DNA from: Desulfobacteraceae bacterium
GTDB lineage: Bacteria; Desulfobacterota; Desulfobacteria; Desulfobacterales; Desulfosalsimonadaceae
Reading direction: 5' to 3'
NCBI GenBank assembly: GCA_011390465.1
Contig: JAABSH010000015.1
Location: 1-64,000 of the forward strand
Length of the DNA stretch: 64,000 bases
The position numbers were made by a program, and so were the translations under genes. The notes under the pieces are model-generated. The model worked only from the letters and a program-made list of their open reading frames with translations, was not told the DNA's origin and searched no databases. Within the stretch, counting starts at the first letter, position 1; every line of letters begins with the position of its first letter. Below, in pieces: positions 7,817 to 25,306 of the stretch.

Positions 7817-8257
7817 CTAAATATTGCCGCCCCGCCGCAAAAGGGTTCGTGCCTCGGCCTTACGAATCCGGTCTTCCTGTTCGTCTTTTCGTTTCCGGGC
7901 GCCTTCGAGTTTTTTCGCCATTTCCCTGGCGTCTGCGGGTTTGAGCAAATAATCAAATGCCCCCAGTTTCATGCCGGTTACCGCTGTTTCAATGGCCCCG
8001 TGACCGGTAAGCAGAATCACCTCCACAATCGGGTGGCGCTTTTTAATTTCCCGCAGCACCTCTATGCCGTCCATGCCGGGCATTTTAATATCCAGCACCA
8101 CCACGTCGATATCCTCTCCCTCCAGGATATCAAGGCATTCTTTTCCGTTGTAGGCGGTAAAGACCCGCTCGCCGGTTTCCTGCAGCCGCAGGGAAAACAT
8201 TTCCACAAAATCCTTTTCATCATCCACAATCAGGACCTTTGTCGGAATTTTAATCAT
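7817..8257 (-). CDS. Single-domain response regulator (receiver)
   Basis: A 146-residue CheY-like receiver with Asp56 in VVLDIKMPG, acidic pair at 12-13, LTGHG and LLKPA. The tail is short and highly charged (KRKDEQEDRIRKAEAR) with no DNA-binding domain. Its start overlaps the end of the kinase gene upstream by 8 bp, so the two are translationally coupled and likely partners in a phosphorelay. Confidence 0.88.
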   Translation of the reverse strand: MIKIPTKVLIVDDEKDFVEMFSLRLQETGERVFTAYNGKECLDILEGEDIDVVVLDIKMPGMDGIEVLREIKKRHPIVEVILLTGHGAIETAVTGMKLGAFDYLLKPADAREMAKKLEGARKRKDEQEDRIRKAEARTLLRRGGNI

Positions 8258-9455
8258 TTGGCTGATCTCCTTTAATCGTGTTTAATATATCCAGGCAAAT
8301 ATCTTTGTTATCCCCCATCAGGGAACATGCCTTTCTGGTCCGCGGCAGGCTGATGGTAAACACCGTGCCCTGCCCCACGCGGCTGGTGACATCAATTTTC
8401 CCGCCCAGCCGCTCCATAATGCCGGCAGTGACGTAAAGGCCGAGGCCGGTGCCTTTTCCCGGGGGTTTGGTGGTAAAAAAAGGCTCGAAAATCTTTTCCA
8501 GATTTTCCTTTGGAATACCGCTGCCAGTGTCTTCCACCCGGATTTCCGCCAGTAGATCGGTTTCCCGAACGGAAACCGTGATGATGTCCCCGCTGGTCAC
8601 CGCCGCCAGGGCGTTTGTGATCAGATTGATCAGCACCTGCCGGATGGCATACGCATCACTCCAGATTTTCCCGCCGGCCTTATCCAGATCCTGCACAATT
8701 TCCACTTTTTTATTTTGAGCTTCTTTTTTTACGAATTCAATGGTTTCTGAAATCAACGCCTTTAAATCGGTTTCTGAGAAAACCGTTTCCGGCTGCCGGA
8801 CAAAACCGAGCAGCTGATGGGTGATGCGCCGGGCCCGTTCAATGGCGGTTTCGATCTTTCCAACGGCGTTTTCAAAATCCTTTTTCCGTGGGAACACAGC
8901 ATCTTCTGTTTTACCCAGCAGCAGTCGCATAAATTCCGTGCATTCCCTGATAATGGCAAGAGGATTGTCGATTTCATGGGCAATGCCCGTGGACAGAGTT
9001 CCCAAGGACGCCAACCGCTCAGTGGCCACCATCTGCTGCTCCATTCGGGCCTTGAAGTCGGCTTCCTGCTTTTTTTCTTCCTCCCGCTGCCGTTTTTCAA
9101 GGGCCTGATTGATTTTTTGTACCAGATGATCAAATTCCACAGGCTTTGTCAGATAATCAAACGCGCCGTTTTTAATTCCCTCCACACCGTCCGCGGCACA
9201 GGCATGACCTGTCAGCAAAATAACTTCGGTTTTCTGAAACTGCTCCCGAATCCAGGCCAACACCTCAATGCCGCTCATGCCGGGCATCTTAACATCCAGC
9301 ACCACCACATCCACCGCTTCTTGTTGCATCAGCGCCTGACATTCATTTCCGTCTCCTGCCTCAAAAACCATAAATCCGCGTTTCTGGAGCCGTTTTTTCA
9401 ACGGCGACCGGAAATGATTCTCATCATCCACCAGCAGCAGTCGTGTTTGCGTCAT
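8250..9455 (-). CDS. Receiver-histidine kinase (cytoplasmic)
   Basis: A 401-residue soluble protein. Residues 1-120 are a receiver with phosphoacceptor Asp54 ([12 protein letters not shown]); a coiled-coil-like charged linker (120-145) leads to a HisKA domain with His160 in [10 protein letters not shown], then a HATPase with N box [12 protein letters not shown]1 DTGSGIP and G2 [10 protein letters not shown]. It has no membrane or sensory domain, so its input is probably phosphate from another kinase reaching the N-terminal receiver. It could relay signals from the membrane kinase at 12339-14027 to the two receivers downstream. Start ATG at 9455. Confidence 0.9.
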
Positions 9456-9493
9456 GCCATTTTCTCCGGTTTTGATTTTCCACCTTCCATCTC

Positions 9494-9535
9494 AAACCTT
9501 CTACCTTAAACCTTCTACCTTAAACCTTCTACCTT
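9494..9535. repeat. Tandem 14-bp repeat, three perfect copies
   Basis: AAACCTTCTACCTT occurs three times without change in the gap between the receiver-kinase and DASS 2, with degenerate related bases on both sides. It is too short and gapless for a CRISPR. On the minus strand it reads as purine-rich AAGGTAGAAGGTTT. Confidence 0.8.
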
Positions 9536-9551
9536 AGATCTTACACCTTCC

Positions 9552-11132
9552 CTACACCAGCCCCAGAATATTCCACCATACCGCCGCAATAACCACCAGA
9601 ACTGCCAGCAGAACCGGGGTTGCCACCAGGCCGACCTTGGTGAGATCCGATGCCTTAAAATACCGGTAACTGTAAGAAATAGCATTGGGAGGACATCCAA
9701 TCACCAGCAGCAGCGCAAAAGAAGTGGCCATCCCAAGACCCAGGGCCAAAATGGTCGGATCAATGCCTTCCATCTGGGCCATGGGGATCACAATGGGCAA
9801 AATCAGGGCAGCCGCGGCCACATTGGCCATGGCATTGGTCACCAGGGCGCCGAACACGCCCATGCCGATAAACAGCACCAGCCATCCTTTTCCCTGAATC
9901 AGCGGGAAAAAGAGATTGGCAAAATAATCCGCGGCCCCGGAATAACCCATGGCAAGGCCAAGAGAGATACCGCCGCCAAAAATAAACAAAGCCGTGCCCC
10001 ATTCCAGATTGTCATTGATATGCTCCCATTTAAGCACCTGAAACAGGACCAGGGCCGCCACCCCCAGCATACCGGTGATAGAATAATCAATGCCGTGAAT
10101 CCCTTTGGTCAACCAGCAGGCAAACGTCAGAGCAATAATTACAAGGGTCTTTTTTTCAAGGGGGGTCATCGGGCCAAGGGCTTCATCAAATTCCGGCAGT
10201 TTGTATTTGGGGTCAGGGCGATACACCAGATAAACAATGCCCACCGCCACCGGCACCGTCAGCAGGGCACCGGGCAGGGCATACAGAATCCACTCAAAAA
10301 ACGTGATTTCCAGACCGGTAAATTCCTTTAAAAAGGCAGCCGCCACCATACAGCGGCCTCCGCCGATGAGGGTGCCCATGCCGCCGCAGGAACAGGCAAA
10401 GGGCAACGACAGCATCATGAACTTAGCCGTTTTCGACCCCGGTTCAATGCCAGCCGCCCGCATCATCGGAAGCATGGTCACAATGCCGATGGCACAGGCG
10501 GCGGCATCATGCATCACCCCGGAAGCCCAGCCAAGGCCCAGGGAAATGATAAAAGTAAACCGGGTGACATTATTGCCGGCCTTTTTGATGATAAAATACC
10601 CCAGGCGTTTGGTGAGTCCCGCCTCATCCAGGGCAATGGCAAAAATAAGGCAGCACATAATAAAAATCACCACTGGATGCATATACGGGGCCCATGCATC
10701 CTTGGGACTCGCAATTCCCATGACAACCAGGGACACGCCGATACAGATGGCTGTTATCTCAAGGGGAATGGGTTCCACCACAAAAAGAAAAATCAGCACC
10801 GCCAAAACGGCCAGAAACCGCTTTGCCGTGGGCGACAATCCGTTCACATAGTCCACTGTAATTTCAGCTTCTTCCAGGGCAGTGGCCTGCTTTTTCAGAT
10901 AATTACCCGTGCCGGTGTCCGTGCCGGGAATTTTTGATTCCAGAATATAGGCTTTGGTTTTTTTATTCGGTTCGCCGGTTAATTCAAAGTGCGTATCCAC
11001 CATCGCATATAAGCTTTGGCCCGGGTCACCTGAAATTTTATATTTTGTGCCTTCCGGCCTTGGCAGCAACATTACAAGCACCCCCAGCAGCAGGCCGATA
11101 CAAAGCTTGAATCCGTTTGATTTGAAAAACAT
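9552..11132 (-). CDS. SLC13/DASS-family transporter (2), with enlarged TM1-TM2 loop
   Basis: About 526 residues. After TM1 (residues 8-24) comes a hydrophilic loop of about 85 residues, then the usual DASS core with many helices and the GCPPNAISY signature near the C terminus. The SNT substrate motifs are replaced by MHD (in GVMHDAAAC) and ANV (in NAMANVAAA). The ATG at 11132 sits 6 bases after AAGGAGT, which decides the start against an in-frame TTG at 11150. It lies between receiver genes in a long same-strand run. Substrate unknown; sulfate, thiosulfate or C4-dicarboxylates are all possible for the family. Confidence 0.85.
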   Translation of the reverse strand: MFFKSNGFKLCIGLLLGVLVMLLPRPEGTKYKISGDPGQSLYAMVDTHFELTGEPNKKTKAYILESKIPGTDTGTGNYLKKQATALEEAEITVDYVNGLSPTAKRFLAVLAVLIFLFVVEPIPLEITAICIGVSLVVMGIASPKDAWAPYMHPVVIFIMCCLIFAIALDEAGLTKRLGYFIIKKAGNNVTRFTFIISLGLGWASGVMHDAAACAIGIVTMLPMMRAAGIEPGSKTAKFMMLSLPFACSCGGMGTLIGGGRCMVAAAFLKEFTGLEITFFEWILYALPGALLTVPVAVGIVYLVYRPDPKYKLPEFDEALGPMTPLEKKTLVIIALTFACWLTKGIHGIDYSITGMLGVAALVLFQVLKWEHINDNLEWGTALFIFGGGISLGLAMGYSGAADYFANLFFPLIQGKGWLVLFIGMGVFGALVTNAMANVAAAALILPIVIPMAQMEGIDPTILALGLGMATSFALLLVIGCPPNAISYSYRYFKASDLTKVGLVATPVLLAVLVVIAAVWWNILGLV

Positions 11133-11261
11133 ATAAGTACTCCTTGTCAATCGTTCGTGGTCAAATTTTGGCGGTCAATGATCTGTGGGCAATCATTTAC
11201 GGTCAGTGGTTCAGCAGCAGGCGGGCAAAACCATTCTTTCACGCGGGCCGCCCGGCACCTT

Positions 11262-11702
11262 TCAATGACGGGCTGTATATGCTTCATTGATTTTGGCTAT
11301 CAAATCATGGAGCTCACAGGGCTTGGTCAGATAATCAAACGCTCCCAGCTGAATGCCCTCCCGGGCCGCCTCCTGTGATCCATGGCCCGTGAGCATAATG
11401 ATTTTCATGTCCAGGCCCATTTGATTAAAAATTTTCAGCACTTCAAGTCCGTCCATGTCTTCCATTTTGAGATCCAGAATGGCCACGTCAAAATCCTGTT
11501 TCCGCGCTGCTTTGATCGCATCGCCGCCGCTGCAGGCAGTGGTGACCTGAAACCGCCTTTTTGAAAGACGGTTGTTCAGGACATTCACATATCCTTCTTC
11601 ATCATCCACCAGCAGCACCCGAATCCCCTCGGCCGCGGCTTGCAAATCATTTTTTTCCCGCTTCATCTCTTGCCCTTTAATTGTTTCAATTCCGTCGGCC
11701 AT
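11262..11702 (-). CDS. Single-domain response regulator (receiver)
   Basis: A receiver of 146 residues with a 30-residue N-terminal extension before the VLLVDDEEG motif. The phosphoacceptor is Asp77 in ILDLKMEDMDG (MPG changed to MED), and LTGHG and LTKPC are intact. No output domain. An ATG at 11702 preceded by AAAGGGTG is preferred over the GTG at 11720. It sits directly upstream of DASS 2. Confidence 0.85.
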   Translation of the reverse strand: MADGIETIKGQEMKREKNDLQAAAEGIRVLLVDDEEGYVNVLNNRLSKRRFQVTTACSGGDAIKAARKQDFDVAILDLKMEDMDGLEVLKIFNQMGLDMKIIMLTGHGSQEAAREGIQLGAFDYLTKPCELHDLIAKINEAYTARH

Positions 11703-11761
11703 GATCACCCTTTCGGCCACTATGTTCGCAGGATACGGGGTTTATCACCACCCGCAACGGC

Positions 11762-11776
11762 AGGGCGTAAAGCCCT
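11762..11776. repeat. Short hairpin inside a dispersed repeat
   Basis: AGGGC-GTAAA-GCCCT, followed by CCCCTACATTG, lies between two receiver genes. The same CCCTCCCCTACATTG wording occurs in the inverted repeat at 24509-24642, so this looks like a fragment of the same dispersed repeat family. Confidence 0.45.
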
Positions 11777-11829
11777 CCCCTACATTGGCCGAGACGATGG
11801 CCAAGCCCCCCGGCTCTTTTCACGGGCCG

Positions 11830-12270
11830 TCAATCATACCCGCGTCTCAACACCAGCTTGTCAATTCTGGCCTGTTCGATTTTTGCATCGTGGGATTTCT
11901 TTTTCTTTGCCGCCTCATCCACTTTGGCCACCAGGACATCGATGTCACAGGGCTTCATCAGGTAATCAAACGCCCCGAGCTTCATGCCTTCGATGGCTGT
12001 TTCCACAGTGGCATGGCCGGTGAGCATGATTACTTCCTTGAGGGGATAAATTTTTTTAATTTCCTGAAGGGTTTCAATGCCGTCCATTCCGGGCATTTTT
12101 ACATCCAGGATAATCACATCAACGGTGTCGTTCTCTTTGAGCTTTTTCAAAGCTTCTTCTCCGCCCGAAGCGGAAATAATTTTCAGCCCCCGCCGGTCCA
12201 GACGCTTGGTCATGGTCTCCACAAACGGCACCTCATCATCCACCAGCATGACATAGGATGTTGTCATCAT
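11830..12270 (-). CDS. Single-domain response regulator (receiver)
   Basis: A 146-residue receiver with Asp56 in [12 protein letters not shown], acidic pair at 11-12, LTGHATVE and LMKPCDID. The C-terminal tail is charged and helical, with no DNA-binding domain. AAAAAAGGAGACGTGCA precedes the ATG. It immediately follows the membrane kinase at 12339-14027, which is its most likely phosphodonor. Confidence 0.88.
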   Translation of the reverse strand: MMTTSYVMLVDDEVPFVETMTKRLDRRGLKIISASGGEEALKKLKENDTVDVIILDVKMPGMDGIETLQEIKKIYPLKEVIMLTGHATVETAIEGMKLGAFDYLMKPCDIDVLVAKVDEAAKKKKSHDAKIEQARIDKLVLRRGYD

Positions 12271-12338
12271 TGCACGTCTCCTTTTTTCTGATATTTCAAT
12301 TGAATTTCGTTTATCTTTATTGATTGAAAATCTTTTCC

Positions 12339-14027
12339 TTACTGCTGAAACGGAATCCAGATGCGAAACCGGGTGCCTTTTCCCACCGCACTCTGAACGT
12401 CGATTTTGCCGCCCATTTTATTGATAATGCCGTAGCAGATGGACAGCCCCAGTCCCGTTCCCTTGCCCACCGGCTTGGTGGTAAAAAACGGATCAAAAAG
12501 CCGGGACAGATTGGCATCGGGAATGCCCGGTCCGTTGTCTTCCACCACGATCACAATGGTGCCGGGCTCAATTTCACTGATTTTGGTTGAAATATGGATA
12601 ACACCGCCGGTTTTTTCCATGGCATCCAGGGCATTGTTGATAAGATTCAACAACACCTGCTGAAGTTCAGACGGTGATGCCGTGATATAGGGAAGGGTTT
12701 TCTGAAGACGGGTTTCAATGCTCACTTTGTTGTATTTGGCCATCTGGGAGGATAAATCCACAATTTCACGAATAATATCATTGAGCTGAACGTCCTTGAG
12801 CGTAGAGTCTGTTTTTCTGGCAAAACTGAGCAGTTTGTGGGTGATTTCCTTGCACCGCCGGCCCTGGGTGTTGATCTGGGTCAACGCCCGCCGGAATTCT
12901 TTCAGATTTTCCCCTTCCGCAAAATCCTCTTCTTCGAGCAGATCGCCAATCCATCCGGCTTCTTCCACCATAATGGCCACGGGATTGTTGATTTCATGGG
13001 CAATACCGGCGGCCAGCTCGCCGATGGAAGCCATTTTGCCGGTTTCAATAATCTGCTGGTTCATGCCTTCTTTTTCCCTGTCTGTCTTGCGAATGCGGCG
13101 AACCATGCGGCGGGTGGTATAATTGGCCATAAAAACAATGCCGGCGGCACCGATAACGAAAATCACCAGGGCCAGATAATACATGCGTCGCAGGTCAGCG
13201 TAGGCATCAGATACTTTTTGCTTTACAATGAGCAGCCACTGACCGTGTTTCAGGCTGCCGGCCGCATAAAGATCTGCTTCACCCGTATCATCCGTCCACC
13301 GGGTGATGAGAATCTTGTTCCGGGTTTTTTCAACTGCTTTCCACAAAAAAGAAATCCCGTCCGGGTCCGGCGGAATATCCATGGCCGGCTGGGTCTGAAA
13401 CGCCCCTTCCCGGTTCAGGATAAAGGCATACCCGGTTTTTCCCAGCCGCAGAGTCTGCACCAGGGAATTAAAAGAATTAAAATTAATGGTGGCCCGGACC
13501 AAAAATTCCCGGCCGTTTTCATTCTGGCGCACGGCCACAATAAAATGAGGGGTCCCCCGGAGGCCTAAAAACACATCACTGATATAAGAATCCTTCTGCC
13601 ACGCACTTTGAAACCATTCCGCGTTTCTATAATCGACATTTTCCAGTTCCAGGGGGCCGGCGTAGGCTGTCTGCAAGCCGGAAGCTTCTACAATGCCCAG
13701 ATCCACAAACACATTCCCGTAGTCATTTCTCAGAAGCTGGAGTTTTCGCTGGAGAAACTCATCATCATTTAAGGTTTCATAATCTTTGGTCATGGCCAGA
13801 AACCGAATATTGGCCGTCTTTTCAGTTAAAAAAGTGTCAATATTCTGTTTGTGTTTCTGGACCAGCTCATTTAAGTGGGCATTGGTTTTTTCATAAAAAG
13901 ACACCTGATACTGTTGCAGCAGAATCGTGATCACCAGAATCATGGGGGTAAAGGAAACAATAATGGTGCTTAAAATCATGTTCCGTGAAAGGGATTGATA
14001 ATAATTTTTATTTTTGTCTTTTACCAT
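12339..14027 (-). CDS. Membrane histidine kinase with periplasmic Cache-type sensor
   Basis: 562 residues: TM1 about 18-38, a periplasmic double-Cache-like region about 45-275, TM2 about 283-302, then HisKA with His344 in [11 protein letters not shown] and a HATPase with N box [12 protein letters not shown]1 DNGPGIP and G2 [10 protein letters not shown]. The sensor contains a [13 protein letters not shown] stretch also found in the kinase at 22707-24440, so the two are paralogues. It probably detects a small ligand outside the inner membrane and phosphorylates the receivers just downstream. It is the first gene of the 14027-5546 run, with a sigma-54-like promoter about 190 bp upstream. Confidence 0.9.
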
Positions 14028-14217
14028 TTCAGGTTCCGTGTTGCGTTATGCGTCATCGGATCAACCGGATGTCCGGTAAGTTTTTGCCGATGTCTGTTGT
14101 GCTTTCATTCCGGTCTTGTTTTACGGGCATTGCCGCCGGCGGTATCTTTTGCGACGGGATCTTCGGCACCTGCCCACGGCAGCAACCGGGAAACGTCTAA
14201 AAAGAATTCAGGAACCA

Positions 14218-14233
14218 TGCCAAAAACATGCCG
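14218..14233 (-). promoter_or_regulatory. Sigma-54 promoter, candidate, for the kinase-DASS run
   Basis: Minus strand CGGCATGTTTTTGGCA has the invariant GG and GC at the correct 12-bp offset; the -12 element is TGGCA rather than TTGCA. It lies about 190 bp before the kinase start at 14027. The palindrome at 14496-14516 lies about 270 bp upstream and could be shared with the divergent DsrC promoter. Weaker than the other three island sites. Confidence 0.45.
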
Positions 14234-14495
14234 GCGACCCCTTCATCTGCAACGGGATTTGATAACAACACTTTGATATTTAATATAATTTTCTATATTA
14301 ATTTTTTACGACGGATCGAAAAGACCATCTGTCGCACCGGAAAACCAGTTCGCATAACGGATGGGGATAAAAAGGGGAAAACAAGAAAGAGAGCGGAAAA
14401 ACCGGAAATTTAATTCATAAAACCGTAAAAACCGATAAAAATAATTTAGATGAATTCACACCGGCCTGAGAAAGAATCCCATAGCATGCTTTGTT

Positions 14496-14516
14496 TTTTT
14501 TACATGTTGTAAAAAA
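14496..14516. promoter_or_regulatory. 21-bp palindromic operator / enhancer site A
   Basis: TTTTTTACA-TGT-TGTAAAAAA, perfect 9-bp arms with a 3-bp spacer, preceded by GCATGC at 14484-14489. An exact-arm copy, also preceded by GCATGC, is at 25286-25306. The centre is 132 bp upstream of the -24 GG of the DsrC-gene sigma-54 promoter, a usual distance for an upstream activating site bound by an NtrC-type protein. Apart from this site and the two promoters, 14028-14716 shows no gene. Confidence 0.7.
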
Positions 14517-14636
14517 TTTCGACACTCTGGGCACTCAAAACCCATTTTCATGGGATTCAGATGATCACAGGTCGATCCTGCCCCGGAAATGGTGCTGTTT
14601 GGCAACAGATTTTTTTGCCCCGCCATGGAAAAAAAG

Positions 14637-14652
14637 CGGCACGGGGTATGCA
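14637..14652 (+). promoter_or_regulatory. Sigma-54 promoter of the tandem DsrC gene
   Basis: CGGCACGGGGTATGCA matches the -24/-12 consensus (TGGCACG-N4-TTGCA) except for two positions, with GG and GC exactly 12 bp apart. The start of transcription is expected near 14665, giving a leader of about 50 bases to the ATG at 14717. A sigma-70-like pair (TTGTGA, 17 bp, TATAAA at 14660-14688) overlaps downstream and is an alternative. Confidence 0.7.
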
Positions 14653-14716
14653 TTACTCATTGTGAAAGGATAATGAAGGTATTATAAAAGTTTTAAAATT
14701 ACGCACAGAGGTCCCC

Positions 14717-15394
14717 ATGAAAACCCTTTCCTACAAAAACAAGACGTACAATGTGGACAAAAAGAATTTTTTACTGGATTACGATGCCTGGGATGAAGAT
14801 TTTGCGGAATGCATGGCCGGCGAGCTTGGAATGACCGGCGGACTCACGGAACAACACTGGGCCGTGATCCATTTTATCCGAAACCGATTCAAAGAAACCG
14901 GGGTCTGTCCGGTGGTGCATGAAACCGCACGGTTTCTTGGGCTGGACATTCAAACCCTTCAGTCACTTTTTCCCACGGGATATCTCCGGGGGGCCTGTCT
15001 GCTTGCCGGTATCAGTTACCGTTACGGATGGGTTTACTATTATGGCGAACCCTATGCAGTTTCTGACACCGAAACCACGGAAAAAGCCACCGAAGCAGTG
15101 GAAAACAAGGTATACCGGGTGGATCTTTTCGGTTATCTGGTGGATCATTTGGAGTGGGACGCGGATTTTGCCGCCAGAAGAGCCTTTGAAATAGGCATTA
15201 AAGACGGACTGACGGATAAACACTGGAAAATCATTCGTTATTTAAGAGACAAATACAGCCGGGAGCATAAAATTCCCACGATCTATGAATGCTGCGAGGA
15301 CAACCAGCTTGCCATTGACACGTTCGCCACTCTGTTTCCGGCCGGGTATCACCGGGGTGCCGTCAAAATTGCCGGGCTTCCTTCACTGGCTTAG
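14717..15394 (+). CDS. Tandem double-domain DsrC/TusE-family protein
   Basis: 225 residues made of two consecutive DsrC-like domains (about 1-110 and 131-225). Both show the family framework: FLLDYDAWDEDFA / YLVDHLEWDADFA, LTEQHW / LTDKHW, IRNRF / LRDKY, and LFPTGYLRGAC / LFPAGYHRGAV. In DsrC a conserved cysteine follows GA and a second sits next to the C terminus; together they carry the trisulfide. Here domain 1 keeps the first (Cys94), domain 2 has Val, and neither has the C-terminal cysteine arm. It therefore cannot act as classic DsrC, and resembles the regulatory or sulfur-binding side branch of the family. The fusion is unusual, since DsrC and TusE are normally about 105-115 residues. 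Promoter and operator site lie upstream. Confidence 0.88.
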   Translation: MKTLSYKNKTYNVDKKNFLLDYDAWDEDFAECMAGELGMTGGLTEQHWAVIHFIRNRFKETGVCPVVHETARFLGLDIQTLQSLFPTGYLRGACLLAGISYRYGWVYYYGEPYAVSDTETTEKATEAVENKVYRVDLFGYLVDHLEWDADFAARRAFEIGIKDGLTDKHWKIIRYLRDKYSREHKIPTIYECCEDNQLAIDTFATLFPAGYHRGAVKIAGLPSLA

Positions 15395-15404
15395 GAGAAG
15401 GAAT

Positions 15405-15425
15405 AAAAAAGGCGAAATTTCGCTC
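15405..15425 (-). terminator. Probable terminator of the long minus-strand run
   Basis: Minus strand GGAGCGAAATTTCGCC followed by TTTTTT: a short GCGAA/TTCGC stem and a T run, about 50 bp after the stop of the diguanylate cyclase. The plus strand downstream of the DsrC gene shows no separate terminator. Confidence 0.4.
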
Positions 15426-15472
15426 CATACCCGGCATTGACCTGTTGGCATTGACCTGTTGTGCAATGGCCC

Positions 15473-16399
15473 TCATGCCGAGTGTTTGAGAATCATTTCT
15501 TTGCTGCCGGCCACCGGAGCCTCGGGATGGCCGATAAAAATTTCCTGAACAATCCGGTTTTTCCCCTGGTGTTTGGCCGCATACATCAGTCTGTCGGCCA
15601 CATTCATCATATCCCCCACGCTGGCGTTGATTTTGGGAAAGGTGGCCACCCCCATGCTGAAGGTGACCGGCCAGTTTTTCCGGCGCATTTGGTCATCCAG
15701 TCGGGTTTTAAGTTTTTCAGCCAGGGTCACGGCACCGGAAACATTTGTTTTTACCAGCAAAAGTCCAATTTCATCACCGCCAATGCGGGCGGCAAGGTCT
15801 ATCTCCCGGATATTTTCCACAATAATTTTTGCTGTGGCCTGAAGCAGCCGGTCCCCGGCGGCATGGCCCCGGGAATCATTCACCAGCTTGAAATTATCAA
15901 TATCAATATAGACAATGGACACAGGATCATTAAACCGCCGGGCCCGGTGGATTTCCTTTTCCGCGGCTTCAAAAAACGCCAGACGGTTGGCCAGTGCAGT
16001 AAGGGTATCGGTACGGGCAATTTTTTTCTGGGTTTCCAGGGCGGTTTTAAGAGACCCCACCACCAGCACAACAAAGACAAACACCACCAGCCGGAAAAAT
16101 TCATTGATAAAAGGCACCAGGGGGGTTGAAAATTCTTTTAAAAGCCATAAATCCGCAACCAGCCAGGTAGCGGTGCTGAAAACCGCCATGCTGATACCGG
16201 CAATTATCCCCACATACCAGGTGATAAGAACAATGGGAAACATGAAAAAAACCGACAACGCATATTCAGAGCCGGTAAGGCAGCGATTCATGCCCACCAC
16301 AAGAACAAACCCAATGGCTGCCGCCACCAGGACAATCCGGCTGCATTGCCCAAGGCTCCGGTCCAGGGTTTGAAAAAAATTCTGAAAAAAATTTTTCAT
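15473..16399 (-). CDS. Membrane diguanylate cyclase (GGDEF)
   Basis: 308 residues: about four N-terminal membrane segments (15-125) and a GGDEF domain (about 140-300) making cyclic di-GMP from two GTP. The substrate and metal motifs DTLTALANRLAF and IDIDNFKLVND are present. The active-site signature is GGDEI, with Ile for Phe, which many active enzymes tolerate. It is the last gene of the minus-strand run that starts at 25081, so cyclic di-GMP may be one output of the island. Confidence 0.88.
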   Translation of the reverse strand: MKNFFQNFFQTLDRSLGQCSRIVLVAAAIGFVLVVGMNRCLTGSEYALSVFFMFPIVLITWYVGIIAGISMAVFSTATWLVADLWLLKEFSTPLVPFINEFFRLVVFVFVVLVVGSLKTALETQKKIARTDTLTALANRLAFFEAAEKEIHRARRFNDPVSIVYIDIDNFKLVNDSRGHAAGDRLLQATAKIIVENIREIDLAARIGGDEIGLLLVKTNVSGAVTLAEKLKTRLDDQMRRKNWPVTFSMGVATFPKINASVGDMMNVADRLMYAAKHQGKNRIVQEIFIGHPEAPVAGSKEMILKHSA

Positions 16400-16426
16400 G
16401 AGGGAAACCGGTTGTGATCAAGCATT

Positions 16427-17344
16427 TTAAATCACCCAGACGGTATGATTCTTGGCACCATGGATCACCTTATTGGAAACCCGGCCCAAAAAAAACGCCT
16501 CAACCTTTGAAATCCTTCGTCGTCCCATGATGATGGTGGGAAAATTTTGTTCAGTGGCTTCTCTGATAATGGCCCCGGCCCGGCTGAGGTCTCCGGTGAC
16601 AATTTTTTCGGAAATACCGGACGGATCAATGCCGGCATCTGTCAGCCGTTTTTTCAAGTCTGTAAACAAAAGCGCCATTTCTTCCCTGGCAAGGCCAAAC
16701 CGGTCCCGGATCATTGCATCCGGGAGTTCCGGCATCCAGGGGGCAAGGCCGCGGATCACATTAAACAACTCAATGCAGTACCCTGTGTTTCCATAAAACC
16801 GGGTAATCACGTCAACCACGGCAAAAGCGGTCTCTGAATCGTCCACAGCCGCAAGAATCTTTTTTTCCGGCGGCAAGTCACCGCAGACAATCAGGGGAAC
16901 AGAGGTCAATGTTGAGAGCAGCTTATTGGCCACAGAGCCCACCACAAGGCTTTCAAGGGCCGTAATGCCGCGTCGGCGGAAAAACACCGCATCATAACCT
17001 GCCTGAGCCTCAGTCATGATATCTCTGGCAATGCCCTGATCCCGCTCCTGAATCCGGATATCAATCAATGACCGGTCAAACCCGCAGCTCACCAGCAACG
17101 CCGTTGCCTGGTCCATAAAGGTTTGGATAGATTCTCTTTTATGGACTTCCCAGGATTTCAGACGAGTGATTTCTGTTTTTACGTGCGGGTTGTTTTCAAG
17201 ATCCCAGTAGCATTCCGGCACCGGATCAAAAACATGAAACAGCACCACCCTGACATTTTTCGGGGGCAGAAAGCTGCCGACATACCTGACGACCTCCATG
17301 GCCTGGGCGGAAGGATCCGTCAGTACCAGTATTTTTTTTGCCAT
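16427..17344 (-). CDS. Universal stress protein, two Usp domains
   Basis: 305 residues with two UspA domains in tandem (about 1-150 and 155-305). The ATP-binding style GRRRISKVEAFFLGRVSNKVIHGA motif is seen at the C-terminal end, and a partial version (RRRGITALESLVVGSVANKLL) ends domain 1. Cytoplasmic; binds nucleotide or adapts energy and stress responses. Paralogue of the next gene upstream, with nearly the same architecture. The ribosome site is weak (GGTGAAAAA). Confidence 0.88.
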   Translation of the reverse strand: MAKKILVLTDPSAQAMEVVRYVGSFLPPKNVRVVLFHVFDPVPECYWDLENNPHVKTEITRLKSWEVHKRESIQTFMDQATALLVSCGFDRSLIDIRIQERDQGIARDIMTEAQAGYDAVFFRRRGITALESLVVGSVANKLLSTLTSVPLIVCGDLPPEKKILAAVDDSETAFAVVDVITRFYGNTGYCIELFNVIRGLAPWMPELPDAMIRDRFGLAREEMALLFTDLKKRLTDAGIDPSGISEKIVTGDLSRAGAIIREATEQNFPTIIMGRRRISKVEAFFLGRVSNKVIHGAKNHTVWVI

Positions 17345-17533
17345 TTTTTCACCATTTTTTTTAAAATGACGAGAGATGGACCGGGTTGGCGCAGGTTATT
17401 TTCCGAATTTCAAATGATAGCTTTGGGCCGCCAGGTCCGCGATCCAGCCGGTATCTTCAACATAATCCTGATTTTCAGTATATCAAATTTACAGGGAGAT
17501 GCATCTTTATTTATTAACCGCTTTCTCATCCGG

Positions 17534-18463
17534 CTAAACCATCCACACGGTAAACTCCCGGCCCACGTGAATCACCTTGGTGCTGACCCGTCCCATAAAA
17601 AATTCCTGCACCCGGGACAATCCTTTGCGACCCACCACAATGGTGCCGTAGTTGCCTGCTTTTGCTTCTTCCACGATAGCGCCGGCCCGGCTGTTGATGC
17701 CGGTGATAATTTTCTCTTCAATGTGATTTTCATCAAATCCGGCCAAAATTAATTTTTCCCGGATGTCTCCGAACAACCGCATCATTTCATCATGGGCCAG
17801 TTCCACGCTTTCCGACGGCATCATAAATTCCGGATTTTCCGGTACCAGATTGCCGAACCCCCGGATCACATGAAGCAGTCCCACGCTGTATCCCAGCCCG
17901 CCCAATGTTTCAGCGACAAAATCCACGGCTTTGAAAGAAGCAGTGGAACCGTCAACCGCAAGAAGCACCCGGTTATTAAGCTCCCGGCGGCCCGCAATGA
18001 TAAGCGGGCAGCAGGTCAGTTTGCCCAGCAGCTTGTTCGCCACGCTGCCCACGACAATGGTTTCAAGGGCGCCGGCCCCGCGCCGGCGCATCACCACTGC
18101 CTTGTACGCGCCTTCTTCCGCTTCTTTCAGAATATCCCGCGCGATGCCGATACGCTGATTGTGAATCTGGATATCCACGGCATCTTTTTTGTATCCGGCC
18201 GCCACCAGGCGTTCCCGGGCATTTTCCATGAATTCGGTAATTCTTCGTTTCTGGGTAACTTCCCAGGCGGTCATCTGGCTCATGACATGACTGTATTGGG
18301 GGGTTTTTTCAAGATCCCGATAGCATTGCGGAATACCGCTGAAAACAGTGAACAGAATGATCCGGTCATTTTTAAACGGTGTGAGCTGTTCCATAAATTT
18401 TACGGTCTGGCCGGAACGTTCTGAACCGTCCATCAATACGAGCAATTTTTTTGGATTTGTCAT
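17534..18463 (-). CDS. Universal stress protein, two Usp domains
   Basis: 309 residues, tandem UspA domains, with RRRGAGALETIVVGSVANKLLG ending domain 1 and GRKGLSRVQEFFMGRVSTKVIHVG ending domain 2. GGAGGGG lies 5 bases before the ATG. Close paralogue of the neighbour at 16427-17344; the 189-bp gap between them shows no gene. Both lie in the run containing the receiver-CBS fusion, which suggests energy-status signalling. Confidence 0.9.
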   Translation of the reverse strand: MTNPKKLLVLMDGSERSGQTVKFMEQLTPFKNDRIILFTVFSGIPQCYRDLEKTPQYSHVMSQMTAWEVTQKRRITEFMENARERLVAAGYKKDAVDIQIHNQRIGIARDILKEAEEGAYKAVVMRRRGAGALETIVVGSVANKLLGKLTCCPLIIAGRRELNNRVLLAVDGSTASFKAVDFVAETLGGLGYSVGLLHVIRGFGNLVPENPEFMMPSESVELAHDEMMRLFGDIREKLILAGFDENHIEEKIITGINSRAGAIVEEAKAGNYGTIVVGRKGLSRVQEFFMGRVSTKVIHVGREFTVWMV

Positions 18464-18528
18464 TTTCCCCTCCTGCGGTTTGGTGTTGGTTACACTAAAA
18501 TATCTGCTGCAAACGCTCCTGCCGCTTT

Positions 18529-19434
18529 TTATCCCTGTAAAATTTTCTCCATTTCAAAAAACAGATCCTGCTCGCGAATCACCCCTGCAACGTCACCGTT
18601 TTTCATCACCACCAGGCGTCTTACCTTGTGCTGCAGCATCATATAACAGGCTTCCATCAGCGAAGCATTGCCGTCAATGGCATAAGGTGCCGGGGACATG
18701 ATTTCTTTGATGGACAAAGACGCCTTTTTTTTGATCTCAGTGGTAAACATCCCTTTCCAGAACATGGGGGAATACTGAATCGTGTCCGCCAGCGAGGGTT
18801 TGGGCGCGGAAAGATAAGAAGGCATAATCATATCCATCAGGTTTACAATCTCCACCAGACCGCAGACTTTGCCGGAATTATCCAGCACCAGCACGGACCG
18901 GTGGCCGGTTTCCATAATCATGGCAGTGGCCATTTTGGAATAAAAAGACTGCTTGAGCTCACAAATGGCATCTTTTATTTTTGCATCACCGGATAGAGTG
19001 GTATATTCGCTGATGGGAATCATGACGCCGGAGACGGTTTTTTCCGTTTCCTGTTCCGGCGGAATTCCTTTGCTCACCGCATCCCGGATTTTTCCGGCAA
19101 GCACGTCAATATCGCAGGGTTTGGAAAGATAATCAAAAGCACCTTCTTCCCTGGCCTGCCGGGCGCTGCGCAGATCGCCGTGACCGGTGAGCATGATGAC
19201 GGGGAGATCCGGATGGGTTTTGCGGATTTCCGCCAGCGTCTCATGACCATCCATGCCGGGCATTTTGATATCCAGAATAATCACATCCGGCTGCCGGCTC
19301 AACAGCTCAAGGGCCTGCTCCCCGCTTTCCGCCATCAGTGTGTCAAACCCCCGGCGGGTCAGAATTTTATTTGTAGTGGCCCGGAACTGGGCCTCATCAT
19401 CCACCATCAAAACTTTTATTTTTTTATCCGTCAT
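18529..19434 (-). CDS. Response regulator with CBS-pair output domain
   Basis: 301 residues. Residues 1-125 are a receiver (Asp55 in IILDIKMPGMDG, LTGHG, LSKPCDID). Residues about 150-300 are a CBS pair; the repeats are recognisable by ALVLDNSGKVCGLVE-like and RRLVVMKNGDVAGVIRE-like strands. CBS pairs bind adenine nucleotides, so the protein could join phosphorylation and ATP/AMP level. No DNA-binding domain. The start follows GGAAGGGAGA. It sits between the Yip1-like gene and the universal stress proteins. Confidence 0.87.
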   Translation of the reverse strand: MTDKKIKVLMVDDEAQFRATTNKILTRRGFDTLMAESGEQALELLSRQPDVIILDIKMPGMDGHETLAEIRKTHPDLPVIMLTGHGDLRSARQAREEGAFDYLSKPCDIDVLAGKIRDAVSKGIPPEQETEKTVSGVMIPISEYTTLSGDAKIKDAICELKQSFYSKMATAMIMETGHRSVLVLDNSGKVCGLVEIVNLMDMIMPSYLSAPKPSLADTIQYSPMFWKGMFTTEIKKKASLSIKEIMSPAPYAIDGNASLMEACYMMLQHKVRRLVVMKNGDVAGVIREQDLFFEMEKILQG

Positions 19435-19485
19435 TTTCTATCTCCCTTCCAATAAAAACTTGATGAAAAACATCAGGCGGTTTTT

Positions 19486-20025
19486 TTATCTGATCGACGC
19501 AATTAACGGTAACAATGACCAGAAAAACAACATAATAATAACAACAGAAACCAATACCACCCCAATGGACATCCGCCACCCCAGCCCGCCGGCCCGCGAC
19601 AGGCCGATACCAATCAGCAGCCATTTCCAGGGTTCGGTTATCCAGATAAACAGCGGAATCCATGAGGCCAGAAGACTCACGCCCGAGGCGAACGCATAGA
19701 TGCTGAAAATCCGGCCAAACAGAATCTTGTGCTTTGTCAGCATGGTAATGAGCAGATACCCCAGTCCGGCCGCGATATATGTCATGCCCAGGGCATTAAT
19801 GAAATAAATACCGCCGGCAAGCACCGGATTTTCCAGAGGCCGGGTCATTATCAGCGCGGCAGTGGAAAATACGGCCGATACCATCAGAAACCCGAAGGCG
19901 TTTTTATGGGCCCGGGCTTCCGGCAGTTCCCGGTAAAAAGCGCCGGGTGTGGCCAGAATTTTTGACATGGCGGCAACATAATACCCTGCTGAAAATCCCC
20001 GGGCCGGACGGGTCGCGGCATCCAT
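19486..20025 (-). CDS. Yip1-like integral membrane protein
   Basis: About 179 residues with roughly five hydrophobic helices and the layout of bacterial Yip1-domain proteins; exact function unknown. The ATG at 20025 is only one base past the stop of the microprotein upstream (TAA-A-ATG), so the pair is translationally coupled; this decides the start against the in-frame codon at 20061. A role as a membrane partner of the adjacent DASS transporter is inference from position. Confidence 0.7.
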   Translation of the reverse strand: MDAATRPARGFSAGYYVAAMSKILATPGAFYRELPEARAHKNAFGFLMVSAVFSTAALIMTRPLENPVLAGGIYFINALGMTYIAAGLGYLLITMLTKHKILFGRIFSIYAFASGVSLLASWIPLFIWITEPWKWLLIGIGLSRAGGLGWRMSIGVVLVSVVIIMLFFWSLLPLIASIR

Positions 20026-20026
20026 T

Positions 20027-20194
20027 TTATAAAATCCCCGTTTTGTATAAAATGCCCGCAACCAACATCACCAGCGTCAGGACAAAATAAAAAGCCCGTT
20101 CGGTTTCTTTGGTAAAATAAACCCTTCCGTTTTCATAAACCAGCCTGCGCTTTGGGGTTTTTCTCTGATTGTTCTGTTGAAATGCATCTTTCAT
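20027..20194 (-). CDS. Single-pass membrane microprotein, 55 aa
   Basis: A small gene between DASS 3 and the Yip1-like gene. The N-terminal 33 residues are hydrophilic and basic (QRKTPKRRL, then YENGRVYFTKE); the C-terminal 20 residues form one membrane helix (AFYFVLTLVMLVAGILYKTG). AAGGAG lies 8 bases before the ATG at 20194; a second ATG at 20200 is too close to the ribosome site. The stop touches the next start. Not a family I recognise; it could be an accessory subunit of the transporter. Confidence 0.65.
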   Translation of the reverse strand: MKDAFQQNNQRKTPKRRLVYENGRVYFTKETERAFYFVLTLVMLVAGILYKTGIL

Positions 20195-20240
20195 GGGCAT
20201 GACTCCTTTGCTTTTTCTTATTTATTTACGTTCTGTACCC

Positions 20241-22103
20241 TTAAAATACCGGCAAATCCCCAAACCCCCGGACTGCCCAGTAAAAGCCCGTTAACAGCAC
20301 CAGCAGGATGTTTGCGCAAAACCAAAGCGGAATGCCCACCCGCAGGTAATCTTTGGGCTCCAGATACCCGGAGGCATACACAATGGCGTTGGGCGGTGTG
20401 CCGATAATCAGGCAGTAGGCAAAGGAAGAGGCAATGGCAGTGGACATGGCCATAAAAGGAAGATACGTAGAGCCCGGGTGCACCAGCCCTGCCATGTTCA
20501 GGGCGATGGGACCCACGGCTGCGGCTGCCGGACCGTCTGCCATCAGGTTGGTCATGACACTGGTCAGGCCATTGGAAACCGCCATAAGCGGCAACCCGGA
20601 ATCCAGTCCCAGCGGCGCGATGGTATCCAGCACGCTGCGGGCGATCCAGTAGGCCGCCCCGCTATGGTCCAGAATCCGGCCGAAAATAATGGCCCCGGCA
20701 TACAGCCAGACCACGCCCCAGTCGACTTTTTCCTGGTAATCCCGCCAATTTACCACCCCGGCCAATAAATAGGCCACAGCCCCGGCCACAGCAATGACCC
20801 CGATGCCAAGGCGGATGGGTAAAATCCCCATCTGATAAAAGGTTTTTTCCGTAAACCAGCCAAATACCATAACCAGAAAAATAATCAGGGCATAAATCTG
20901 CTGGCGGTTCCAGCCGCCCATGCGGCCGATTTCACTTTTCAGATGTTCCATGGCCGGGGCCAGGGAATGAATCCGGGGCTTAAACCGCCAGTTCACCAGA
21001 AACCAGGACAAGGGAATCATAATCAGCAAAAAGGGGAAACAATAGGACACCCACTGAAAATACCCGATATCCAGGCCAAACATGTCATTTAAATAGGTCA
21101 TCATGATCACATTTCTGGCCCCGCCGGAAGGTGCGCCCGGCCCGCCGGCATTACAGGCCATGGCAATAGCGATCATGAGCAGTTTTCCCAGTTCCGGATC
21201 TTCGGGAATGTCTTTGGTCAGGCTGTTCTGGTAGATGAGAATGCCGATCGGCAAAAACATGGCGGCCAGGGCATGATCAGAAATAAAGGCGGCCAGGGGA
21301 GAAATAATGAGAAAAAAAATCAGGGTAATCCATTTTACACTGGGTTTGGCCAGTTTTCGAAACATGGCCAGGCAGACCCGCTTGTCCACCCCCGTTTTTA
21401 CAAAAGCGGCCGCAAACATCAGACTGCCCATGATAAACCAGACCGCGTCATCCCAGTAAAGCCCGGCCACATCGCTGCGGGAAACCACGCCGGTGAACAC
21501 CAGAATCAGCCCGATACAAAACGCCACGCCGGGCAGGGGAATGCATTCGGTTAAAAAACAGAGCACCACAAACACCATCATGGCAATGGCCACTTTAACA
21601 TGCCATGCGCCTTTGTCCGCCGCGGCCCGGTCTTGTTCGCTTAATTCTTCATATTTAAGACCGTCTCTTCGCAGTTCAAAACCGGCCTTCATCAAAGTGT
21701 TGAATTTTTCCGCATCCACTGAAGTTTCAATATAGTATTTTGCCTTTTCCAGGTTTTTGGCGTCGGCTTCAATACCGTATTTGCCGCACCATTTAAGGTT
21801 CCGGCTTAAAAACCGGTCTCTGGAAAACGCCCCCATTCTTATATTCTGCTCCATCATCTGTACGGTGATGAGCTGCCACTGCTCTGCGGCATTGCTTTCC
21901 GCTCCAAAAAGGGTCGTGGAAAAATAATTTTTCACTGCTTTGGGACCCACGTTGTACTCCATACCCACGTCTTTCATGCCGTAAGGAGTCGGCATTAGCA
22001 GCAGGGCAAAAAACAATGCCACCGGAATAATAAAAATTTTCCAGTCCACATACTTGTCATAACCGCGTGCTTTTTGTTTTTCCTTTTCCCGTTGACTTGT
22101 CAT
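20241..22103 (-). CDS. SLC13/DASS-family transporter (3), long extracytoplasmic insert
   Basis: 620 residues, much longer than usual for the family (about 460-500) because about 130 residues are inserted between TM1 (about 24-42) and the next helix (about 170-190). The core has the GTPPNAIVYASGYL signature near residue 580 and a GAPSGGARN loop. The SNT motifs are replaced by SDH (in FISDHALAA) and ADG (in NLMADGPAA). GAAAGGAGAGGTAT precedes the ATG. It follows kinase and receiver genes at 24440-22199, the same order as kinase-receiver-DASS 2. Substrate unknown. Confidence 0.85.
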   Translation of the reverse strand: MTSQREKEKQKARGYDKYVDWKIFIIPVALFFALLLMPTPYGMKDVGMEYNVGPKAVKNYFSTTLFGAESNAAEQWQLITVQMMEQNIRMGAFSRDRFLSRNLKWCGKYGIEADAKNLEKAKYYIETSVDAEKFNTLMKAGFELRRDGLKYEELSEQDRAAADKGAWHVKVAIAMMVFVVLCFLTECIPLPGVAFCIGLILVFTGVVSRSDVAGLYWDDAVWFIMGSLMFAAAFVKTGVDKRVCLAMFRKLAKPSVKWITLIFFLIISPLAAFISDHALAAMFLPIGILIYQNSLTKDIPEDPELGKLLMIAIAMACNAGGPGAPSGGARNVIMMTYLNDMFGLDIGYFQWVSYCFPFLLIMIPLSWFLVNWRFKPRIHSLAPAMEHLKSEIGRMGGWNRQQIYALIIFLVMVFGWFTEKTFYQMGILPIRLGIGVIAVAGAVAYLLAGVVNWRDYQEKVDWGVVWLYAGAIIFGRILDHSGAAYWIARSVLDTIAPLGLDSGLPLMAVSNGLTSVMTNLMADGPAAAAVGPIALNMAGLVHPGSTYLPFMAMSTAIASSFAYCLIIGTPPNAIVYASGYLEPKDYLRVGIPLWFCANILLVLLTGFYWAVRGFGDLPVF

Positions 22104-22161
22104 ATACCTCTCCTTTCTTCATCTTTCTGAATTGACACTGTCATAAGCTGTACTCGAATAT

Positions 22162-22175
22162 CGTGCCCGGGCACG
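22162..22175. other. 14-bp perfect palindrome before DASS 3
   Basis: CGTGCCCGGGCACG lies between the receiver stop (22199) and the DASS start (22103). It could be a protein-binding site or a weak attenuating hairpin; no T run follows. Confidence 0.3.
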
Positions 22176-22198
22176 CCTGTTCGGTTTTTACCCTTGTT

Positions 22199-22642
22199 TC
22201 AGGAAATACAGGGGGCAGCACCCGATGCATCAGGCGCAGATGCCAGGTTTTCAAGCTTTCGTTGTTCCATGGCCTGTTTTTTGGCATAGGCTTGTTCGAC
22301 TTTTTCCATGAGCTGTGAGATTTCACTGGGCTTCATGAGATAATCAAAGGCCCCCAACTGCATGCCGGTGACGGCCAGATCAAAGGAACCGTGACCTGTG
22401 AGCAAAATAACCTCGATCAGGGGATGGCTTGATTTAATCCGTTTCAACGTTTCAATGCCGTCCATGCCCGGCATTTTGATGTCCAGAATCACCACATCCA
22501 CGGGAATCTGTTCGATCATTTGCAGGGCTTTTTCACCCGAAGAGGCGGTTTGACTGGCGATGCCGCGCTTTTCCAGAAGCGTTGCCGTGGTTTTCAAAAA
22601 CCGTTCTTCATCATCAACAATTAAAAGCTGTATTCTGCTCAT
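22199..22642 (-). CDS. Single-domain response regulator (receiver)
   Basis: 147 residues starting at an ATG preceded by GGGAAAGGAAAAAACA; the frame is open upstream but that part is antisense to the kinase end. Asp54 in VILDIKMPGMDG, acidic pair at 10-11, LTGHG and LMKPSE are intact. The tail is helical and unstructured, with no output domain. It lies just after the paralogous Cache kinase (22707-24440), its likely partner. Confidence 0.88.
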   Translation of the reverse strand: MSRIQLLIVDDEERFLKTTATLLEKRGIASQTASSGEKALQMIEQIPVDVVILDIKMPGMDGIETLKRIKSSHPLIEVILLTGHGSFDLAVTGMQLGAFDYLMKPSEISQLMEKVEQAYAKKQAMEQRKLENLASAPDASGAAPCIS

Positions 22643-22706
22643 TGTTTTTTCCTTTCCCTTTATTTTCATTTCCAATAGTTTCATTTTCGGCCGGCCCATG
22701 CCGGTT

Positions 22707-24440: not shown

Positions 24441-24508
24441 CTGTTTATCCTGTGATTTTTTCTTCTATTAAAATTGGTTTCGTCTACCTGTCTTCGATTA
24501 TCAGGTGC

Positions 24509-24642
24509 CCCTCAATGTCATTAACTTAGGCCATATGCGTAGGGGAGGGGTTTATCCCCTCCCGGCATGGGTCGTCTTTTTCACGGGAGGGGGGAAACCC
24601 CTCCCCTACATTGAAACCTCTTAAGTTAACGACATTGAGGTG
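24509..24642. repeat. Nested inverted repeat (MITE-like hairpin element)
   Basis: Outer arms CCTCAATGTCATTAACTTA and its near-complement ending GACATTGAGG; inner arms GTAGGGGAGGGGTTT and AAACCCCTCCCCTAC. The element spans the gap between the phosphomimetic receiver (stop 24647) and the kinase (start 24440). In RNA it would form a strong hairpin that may reduce read-through or set mRNA stability, which is inference. The rest of the gap shows no gene. Confidence 0.75.
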
Positions 24643-24646
24643 CCCC

Positions 24647-25081
24647 TTACACCTGATTAAAAAAAGATGAACCGTCTGCTGGTTTGCGGGCACCGGGTTT
24701 GGTCCGAAGCTTCATGATCCTGGCCGCCACCCGGGAAATACTGTGCAGAAGCTCTGACGGGTCCGCGTTTTTTTCTATGAAATCATCAGCCTTTTTCACG
24801 CTGGGATGATTTTCATATTCCGTGAAATGGGTGTAGACAATCTGCGGGATGGTGGGAATCAGGTTCTGCACTTTTTCAAGCACGGCAAGCCCGATGGTAA
24901 CGGGAAAATCCAGTTCCATCACCACCAGGTCCGGCCAGGGTCTCCCGTGCAGTTTTGCCAGGATTTCCTTGCCGGATGCCGCTTCCGCAGTTCTGTATCC
25001 CCTGGCGGCCATTTCCCGGACGAGAAATGAACGGACATAGGGATTCGGGTCTGCGATGAGAATGAATAACGGTTCGGTCAT
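24647..25081 (-). CDS. Pseudo-receiver with Glu in place of the phosphoacceptor Asp
   Basis: 144 residues with a CheY-like fold, but the phosphoacceptor is Glu56 (DLVVMELDFP against the usual VVLDIKMP) and one residue of the acidic pair is lost (ADPN). The conserved Thr (YTHF) and Lys (IEKNA) remain. An Asp-to-Glu change often mimics the phosphorylated state, so this receiver may be permanently on. It is the first gene after the sigma-54 promoter and palindrome B and opens the run of genes down to 15473. The start ATG follows GGAGGCG. Confidence 0.82.
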   Translation of the reverse strand: MTEPLFILIADPNPYVRSFLVREMAARGYRTAEAASGKEILAKLHGRPWPDLVVMELDFPVTIGLAVLEKVQNLIPTIPQIVYTHFTEYENHPSVKKADDFIEKNADPSELLHSISRVAARIMKLRTKPGARKPADGSSFFNQV

Positions 25082-25152: not shown

Positions 25153-25168
25153 AGCAAGCAATATGCCA
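25153..25168 (-). promoter_or_regulatory. Sigma-54 promoter of the pseudo-receiver run
   Basis: Minus strand TGGCATATTGCTTGCT: -24 TGGCA and -12 TTGCT with GG and GC exactly 12 bp apart. The predicted transcript starts near 25141, giving a 60-base leader. Palindrome B is centred 129 bp upstream of the -24 GG, almost the same as the 132 bp seen for the DsrC gene. Confidence 0.72.
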
Positions 25169-25285
25169 ACACCGGACCATCAGCGTGTTTAAATTATAAA
25201 ATACTGAAATTAAATAGAATTATAAAAAGAATGTATGAAAAAAATGAAAGATAGAAAGCGAACAGAAAACCTTTGGCATGCAAAT

Positions 25286-25306
25286 TTTTTTACAGCATGT
25301 AAAAAA
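25286..25306. promoter_or_regulatory. 21-bp palindromic operator / enhancer site B
   Basis: TTTTTTACA-GCA-TGTAAAAAA: the same two 9-bp arms and 3-bp spacing as site A (14496-14516), again preceded by GCATGC (25276-25281). It lies between the end of the NtrC-type gene and the pseudo-receiver promoter. No gene is seen in 25082-25370. Confidence 0.7.

Follow-up and report, generated by a model that had tools for sequence, protein, structure and literature searches.

The window, a 64,000-nucleotide stretch of a Desulfobacteraceae genome, carries a palindrome, TTTTTTACA-N3-TGTAAAAAA, at positions 14496–14516 of the forward strand, between two divergently transcribed genes, one of which begins about 470 bp and the other 200 bp away from it. 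This exact palindrome, the core of a putative operator, is followed by a sigma-54 -24/-12 element, CGGCACGGGGTATGCA (14637–14652, forward strand), in which the GG of the -24 box and the GC of the -12 box have ten bases between them, the spacing of a sigma-54 promoter. The start codon of the downstream gene (14717–15394, forward strand; AGAGG ribosome-binding site at 14707–14711), which encodes a 225 aa protein with two DsrC-like domains, lies 65 bp past the element, just as had been predicted, and a transcript start would be expected near 14663. A second exact copy of the palindrome (25286–25306) faces a receiver-only response regulator gene (24647–25081, reverse strand; Pfam Response_reg), the first gene past it, and is accompanied by a sigma-54 element with one mismatch, TGGCATATTGCTTGCT (25153–25168, reverse strand). 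Three further reverse-strand genes encode an NtrC-type response regulator (25371–26831) with a receiver, an AAA+ domain containing GAFTGA and a Fis-type HTH; a sensor histidine kinase (26833–28422), whose gene adjoins that of the regulator and which has a probable four-helix-bundle sensor region (Pfam 4HB_MCP_1 at 26.2 bits, cut-off 27); and a PstS-like periplasmic binding protein (28550–29362), whose match falls under the PstS-family cut-off.

From the palindrome centre to the start of the -24/-12 element we measured 131 bp at the 14 kb site and 128 bp at the 25 kb site (144 bp and 141 bp downstream to the GC of the -12 box). The original prediction had described an exact-arm palindrome at each site, at nearly the same distance from its promoter, and both parts of that description hold. 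It had also called CGGCACGGGGTATGCA a good -24/-12 element; position and sequence are as it gave them, but with two mismatches to TGGCAC-N5-TTGCW the element is fair rather than strong, its spacing lying within the range of other genomes. The window as a whole has no excess of -24/-12-like matches (31 with up to two mismatches, against 43 expected).

These two are the only exact copies of the palindrome in the draft genome of 3,927,081 bases (119 contigs). Allowing up to three mismatches, the window holds four matches compared with a mean of 0.07 in 100 shuffles, none of which reached four. The original prediction proposed a search of the whole genome: the exact copies do precede -24/-12 elements, while loose matches with up to three mismatches are no more frequent genome-wide (18 places) than those of the reversed control (20), so the signal in this genome sits in the exact copies. 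One further copy with a single mismatch (C85:7138) was weak in the full sequence model (E 0.56), and candidates on C81, C58, C12, C3, C108 and C62 were likewise weak, none reaching 12 by weight matrix; thus, no strong operator was found in the genome outside the window. A fourth site of the window (47056–47071) combines an exact core with a weight-matrix score of 19.8; it was set aside because it overlaps the last part of a coding sequence and no -24/-12 element lies close by.

To describe the operator, we aligned 77 unique sites that combine an exact core with a strong promoter, 76 of them from other genomes and one the 25 kb site; nothing but TTTACA, TGTAAA and the promoter had been specified in the search that yielded them. 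The alignment reveals a longer, oriented operator that holds the palindrome, YTTTACAnnnTGTAAAAAAnnCYGACA, with a conserved AAA past the palindrome and a CYGACA box at +13 to +18 from the centre (0.7–1.8 bits per base) that occurs on the promoter side only. The earlier view of the operator was therefore right about the palindrome and only partial, having overlooked this box. At 14 kb the site reads ...TGTAAAAAATTTCGACA, and the full oriented operator, TTTTACATGTTGTAAAAAATTTCGACA (14498–14524, forward strand), with a CGACA box on the promoter side, scores 35.2 by a weight matrix that was trained partly on regulator-adjacent sites of relatives (training median 35.7; null maximum 12.2 in ten simulated 64 kb sequences). 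The second operator (25278–25306, reverse strand) has a weak CYGACA box and scores 19.1. When distinct sites across the genome were ranked with a model built from 54 sites of other genomes, window sites excluded, the site at 14498 came first (E 2.9e-5) and that at 25281 second (E 5.3e-4), the next having an E of 0.014. The right arm of the palindrome and the CYGACA box together form TGT-N11-ACA, a dyad that one dimer might grip. A separate sequence, TGGCATGAATCCTGAA (TGGCATGGTTCCTGAA in the window), recurs 92–297 bp from several operators on the side away from the promoter (14027–14496 in the window, and L107, L102, L350 and L352); its -12 half is unlike that of sigma-54 elements.

The arrangement is widespread among relatives, in line with the conservation that the original prediction called for. 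Within the family, 36 genomes contain 122 forward palindrome matches with up to two mismatches, compared with 47 for the reversed control. Across the order, 170 of 389 genomes carry the strict pattern, TTTACANNNTGTAAA-N{98,128}-GGNANNNNNNNTGC, with 423 occurrences in all, against 2 of 389 for its reversal, and in a phylum sample TTTACA-N3-TGTAAA followed by a -24/-12 element is present in 24 of 198 genomes and in none for the control. A genome may hold up to 13 operator sites. The closest parallel is G003, which keeps the palindrome, the -24/-12 element (two mismatches, 148 bp) and the tandem DsrC gene; only 2 of 32 positions of the operator TTTTTTTACAnGTTGTAAAAAATTTCGnCACT differ there, and the remaining intergenic DNA is far less similar. 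The direct order of operator, promoter and tandem DsrC gene was found only in the window and in G003. Taken across genomes, these patterns point to a control site common to many sulfate reducers and related bacteria. In another family of the same order, about 100 kb of one contig (L148–L152; G242:C1:215000–294999 and 310000–329999) contains eleven operator-promoter sites in an island dense in signalling and stress genes.

The regulator encoded at 25371–26831 matches Pfam Response_reg, Sigma54_activat and HTH_8, its translation contains GAFTGA, and its domain composition is that of an NtrC-type response regulator; at 465.4 bits against TIGR01818, below the ntrC equivalog cut-off of 558.6, it is not NtrC proper. 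The positions of the dyads, roughly 80–200 bp upstream of -24/-12 promoters, are those expected for NtrC-type proteins as judged from sequence, and the genome encodes rpoN (G000:C64, E 5.9e-131, above the cut-off). Orthologues of the regulator (E <= 1e-140) are present in 231 of the 389 order genomes, and the strict pattern is found in 150 of these 231 compared with 20 of the 158 genomes without an orthologue (odds ratio 12.8, Fisher 3e-26, a value that overstates independence because the species are related). The phylum sample behaves similarly, with the pattern in 19 of 39 genomes that have an orthologue and in 5 of 159 that do not. In the 81 regulator-bearing genomes without the strict pattern, other spacings or diverged arms perhaps account for its absence.

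The operator also lies physically close to this regulator clade. The weight matrix finds it at 42 of 57 orthologue loci, no more than 1.5 kb from the gene and in every case 3' of it; as two pairs of loci are duplicates (L203 = L195, L204 = L197), this corresponds to 40 of 55 distinct orthologues, 36 of which also have a -24/-12 element, and the other 15 have no operator in reach. No weight-matrix operator was detected near any of 66 other regulators, which come mostly from other phyla (13 of 136 loci, without a usable reading frame, were left out). A matrix-free search gave the same picture: 34 of 55 orthologues, and none of the 66 other regulators, have the exact 15-base core at a distance of 1.5 kb or less, and with up to one mismatch the counts are 39 of 55 and 1 of 66. 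All 42 full-length orthologue sequences (40 distinct genes) share an RPTL recognition helix, which reads RNTL in two paralogues. NtrC-type sigma-54 control by this regulator, as originally proposed, thus gains strong comparative support from co-occurrence, proximity (40 of 55 vs 0 of 66), the common recognition helix and the presence of rpoN.

Another sigma-54 activator of the same genome could bind the operator instead, leaving the neighbouring regulator a bystander. Such regulators are numerous in the order (24 to 335 loose first-look candidates per genome, among the genomes listed), and 20 genomes carry the pattern without an orthologue. However, 14 of these 20 assemblies are less than 90% complete, so that the orthologue may be missing from the assembly (the other six are at least 90% complete), and a bystander would account poorly for the strong co-occurrence and for an operator 3' of 40 of 55 orthologues vs 0 of 66 other regulators. 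We consider this explanation improbable.

The promoter-operator distance bears on a second alternative, that a repressor or one-component factor acting on a sigma-70 promoter uses the palindrome as its operator and the -24/-12 match has arisen by chance. Symmetric AT-rich palindromes are common repressor sites, and some operators of the genus do lack a clear promoter of the sigma-54 type: strong operators in G001, G002, G006 and G010 have no -24/-12 element with up to two mismatches on either side. Yet across the 77 sites the distance from the operator to the -24/-12 element is narrow, with a mode of 128 bp. Among 29 loci from 29 genomes, one per genome and picked on the palindrome alone with promoters disregarded, 12 have a -24/-12 element (up to one mismatch) 110–150 bp away, against a mean of 0.07 for 27 control offsets. 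The extended operator, moreover, is oriented towards the promoter, and together these observations make a repressor site very unlikely. Helical phasing of the operator-promoter distances was unconvincing; the vector length is 0.48 at 10.5 bp and rises with period because the distances are narrow. Least credible of all is an RNA hairpin such as a terminator: both copies can form a short hairpin and the second lies just 3' of the regulator gene, but folding is not clearly better than that of shuffles (z -0.95 and -1.01), the 3' arm is an A-run and not a U-run, and the 14496 copy sits in the divergent intergenic region upstream of both flanking genes.

Activation by the NtrC-type regulator is the reading that we favour, and 14496–14524 is very probably the upstream activating site of the regulator encoded at 25371–26831, with binding, activation, phosphorylation and promoter use inferred. 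In the mechanism that we propose, a periplasmic signal would act through the binding protein (28550–29362) and the kinase (26833–28422) to bring about phosphorylation of the regulator. The activated regulator would then bind the operator at 14496–14524 and oligomerise, and the oligomer would open the sigma-54 promoter at 14637–14652, leading to transcription of the tandem DsrC-like gene. The regulator would also act at 25286 on the gene for the receiver-only protein, and perhaps at 29690 on its own operon.

The PstS-like protein is a probable signal-binding partner of the kinase, and the binding protein, kinase and regulator genes are preceded by an imperfect third operator, TCTGACACCCTGTAAAAAAATCCGGCA (29672–29698, reverse strand; score 22.6, E 0.25 genome-wide), and by a near-consensus sigma-54 element, TGGCATGCAGGTTGCA (29425–29440, reverse strand), their candidate promoter, 263 bp from that operator. 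The third operator suggests possible self-regulation of these genes. Its counterpart in G003 (L108) is weak (score 12.8) and lies about 125 bp from the promoter, and a full operator precedes the binding-protein gene in G148, G021 and G033. An ATCGGG-type 6-base tandem repeat at 29493–29558 is located between the third operator and the promoter and may explain the long distance of 263 bp.

The gene behind the first operator had been predicted to encode a tandem DsrC homologue that serves as a sulfur-trafficking protein. Its family assignment is upheld: the product of 14717–15394 contains two DsrC domains (Pfam E 3.4e-39 in two stretches; PDB 2xsj_C, E 4.5e-15), and both halves align across 13 homologues from the window and relatives. 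Domain 1 keeps the RGAC motif, with the upstream cysteine equivalent to Cys100, in 13 of 13 homologues. The penultimate cysteine (CX10C, equivalent to Cys111) is absent from both halves in all 13; the residue 11 places past the RGAC cysteine in domain 1 is W, N, Q, R, I, L, M or F, and a cysteine motif is missing from the end of every second half. Another contig of this genome encodes a canonical DsrC, which does have the penultimate cysteine and ends in GACKMAGLPKPTGCV (KPTGCV). The available text of PMC3397948 describes this cysteine as strictly conserved in DsrC and as its sole sulfur-binding residue. The tandem protein therefore falls outside the sulfur-carrying DsrC / TusE proteins, which are recognised by their penultimate C-terminal cysteine, and the sulfur-trafficking part of the prediction is not supported, such a role being unlikely for a protein that lacks the residue. 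RspA is a name for DsrC-like proteins without the cysteines; we did not find it applied to such proteins in the literature searched.

In the window the tandem DsrC gene stands alone, and its genomic setting varies among relatives. In G015, a likely operon behind an operator (score 23.8) and promoter (122 bp) encodes four hydrogenase-like subunits, an HdrC-like protein and a tandem DsrC (NCBIfam matches clear, yet below equivalog cut-offs). In G004, two tandem DsrC genes belong to a complex I-like/formate dehydrogenase cluster, also a likely operon, which begins behind an operator (34.4); the -24/-12 element there is imperfect, its -12 box having no C. In both genomes the tandem DsrC gene lies further down the gene run and not directly behind the promoter. 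In G007 the operator lies beyond the tandem DsrC gene and faces away, and no operator was found near the gene in the examined stretches of G006, G009, G012 and G028 (short contigs in G009 and G028). Tandem DsrC genes also occur in a row, three in L104 (G009) and two in L102 (G004), where a formate dehydrogenase alpha gene follows them.

Beyond the two genes that lie directly behind exact operators, the only ones in the window tied to the regulator, we obtained a picture of the wider regulon by identifying the first gene after 66 of 97 sites, many of the remaining sites being near the end of a short locus. Pfam families among these 66 first genes include receivers (17), universal stress proteins (9), CBS proteins, histidine kinases and dCache domains (6 each), cNMP-binding proteins (4), binding proteins and cytidylate-kinase-like proteins (3 each), and sodium:sulfate symporters, DsrC and TauE (2 each), besides rarer families. 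A receiver-only gene similar to that at 24647–25081 is found behind an operator in G003, G008, G009 and other genomes, and operators also stand before [NiFe]-hydrogenase-like genes (G015, G008) and NuoE/NuoF-like genes (G034). The predicted targets are thus receiver-only, universal stress and CBS proteins, kinases, anion transporters and hydrogenases. A cluster at 7817–24440 of the window encodes receivers, kinases, two sodium:sulfate-symporter-family permeases, two universal stress proteins and a receiver-CBS protein, and the families of the cluster at 7.8–25 kb recur behind operators in other genomes. A MITE-like repeat at 24503–24647 separates the receiver-only gene from the next kinase gene; it is a palindromic element with 26-base terminal inverted repeats that has 82 matches in the genome with both strands counted (about half as many places) and 17, mostly partial, in G003.

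One operator is thereby tied to one regulator clade across Desulfobacterales and related groups of the phylum, which makes it possible to compile its predicted targets from many genomes and to test them with a single purified protein. The nature of the targets (universal stress and CBS proteins, receivers, anion transporters, hydrogenases, formate dehydrogenase) suggests a response to the energy or electron-donor state. The label 'DsrC' need not mean sulfur transfer, since the cysteine that binds sulfur has been lost from this tandem form, whose gene travels with hydrogenase genes in some relatives. We tentatively put forward a broader model, which we regard as possible though somewhat less probable than not, in which the binding protein, kinase and NtrC-type regulator might run a phylum-wide energy/redox regulon in sulfate reducers and their kin via an oriented operator of three half-sites, ACA-N3-TGT-N11-ACA, and the tandem DsrC might be a structural or regulatory partner of hydrogenase and formate dehydrogenase complexes that cannot carry sulfur in the known way.

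No earlier report of the operator was found in the literature searched, which included the available text of PMC4641369, PMC3333781, PMC6299228, PMC11841059, PMC2702500, PMC6129605 and PMC3397948 (figures, supplements and most subscription journals being outside the search); the strings TTTACA and TGTAAA are absent from the main texts of PMC4641369 and PMC3333781. The breadth of the regulon and the association with tandem DsrC were likewise not found in the literature searched.

The mechanism is of a known kind. As a pairing of a periplasmic binding protein with a sensor kinase, TorT-TorS offers a precedent for a binding-protein gene beside that of a kinase with a probable four-helix-bundle sensor region, although here the binding protein is PstS-like and the regulator NtrC-type. 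Both halves of the tandem protein match the DsrC / TusE family (TIGR03342), and domain 1 retains the Cys100 equivalent; unlike the DsrC / TusE described in the available text of PMC3397948, the protein has a tandem build and no Cys111-equivalent cysteine in either half. In Myxococcus xanthus, the NtrC-like NmpRSTU system, which controls universal stress and CBS-domain proteins from dyads before sigma-54 promoters (PMC11841059, available text), resembles the present one by description in regulator type, dyad placement and targets. It differs in its site, GCGCA-N5-TGCGC in pairs rather than TTTACA-N3-TGTAAA, and in its first sensor, the soluble haem-needing kinase NmpU rather than a periplasmic binding protein with a membrane kinase (PMC11841059, same text). 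In Desulfovibrio vulgaris, for which the available text of PMC4641369 describes 36 sigma-54 regulons of mostly one to four operons each, NtrC-type regulators share with ours a sigma-54 activation domain, a Fis-type HTH, dyads upstream of -24/-12 promoters and a regulator gene beside its target. According to the same text, several Desulfovibrio regulators have TGT/ACA half-sites separated by 9, 11 or 12 bp, and DVU2956 has an operator of three half-sites; the TGT-N11-ACA formed here by the right arm and the CYGACA box resembles these half-site groups, whereas the number of sites, up to 13 per genome, sets the present system apart from the small regulons of D. vulgaris.
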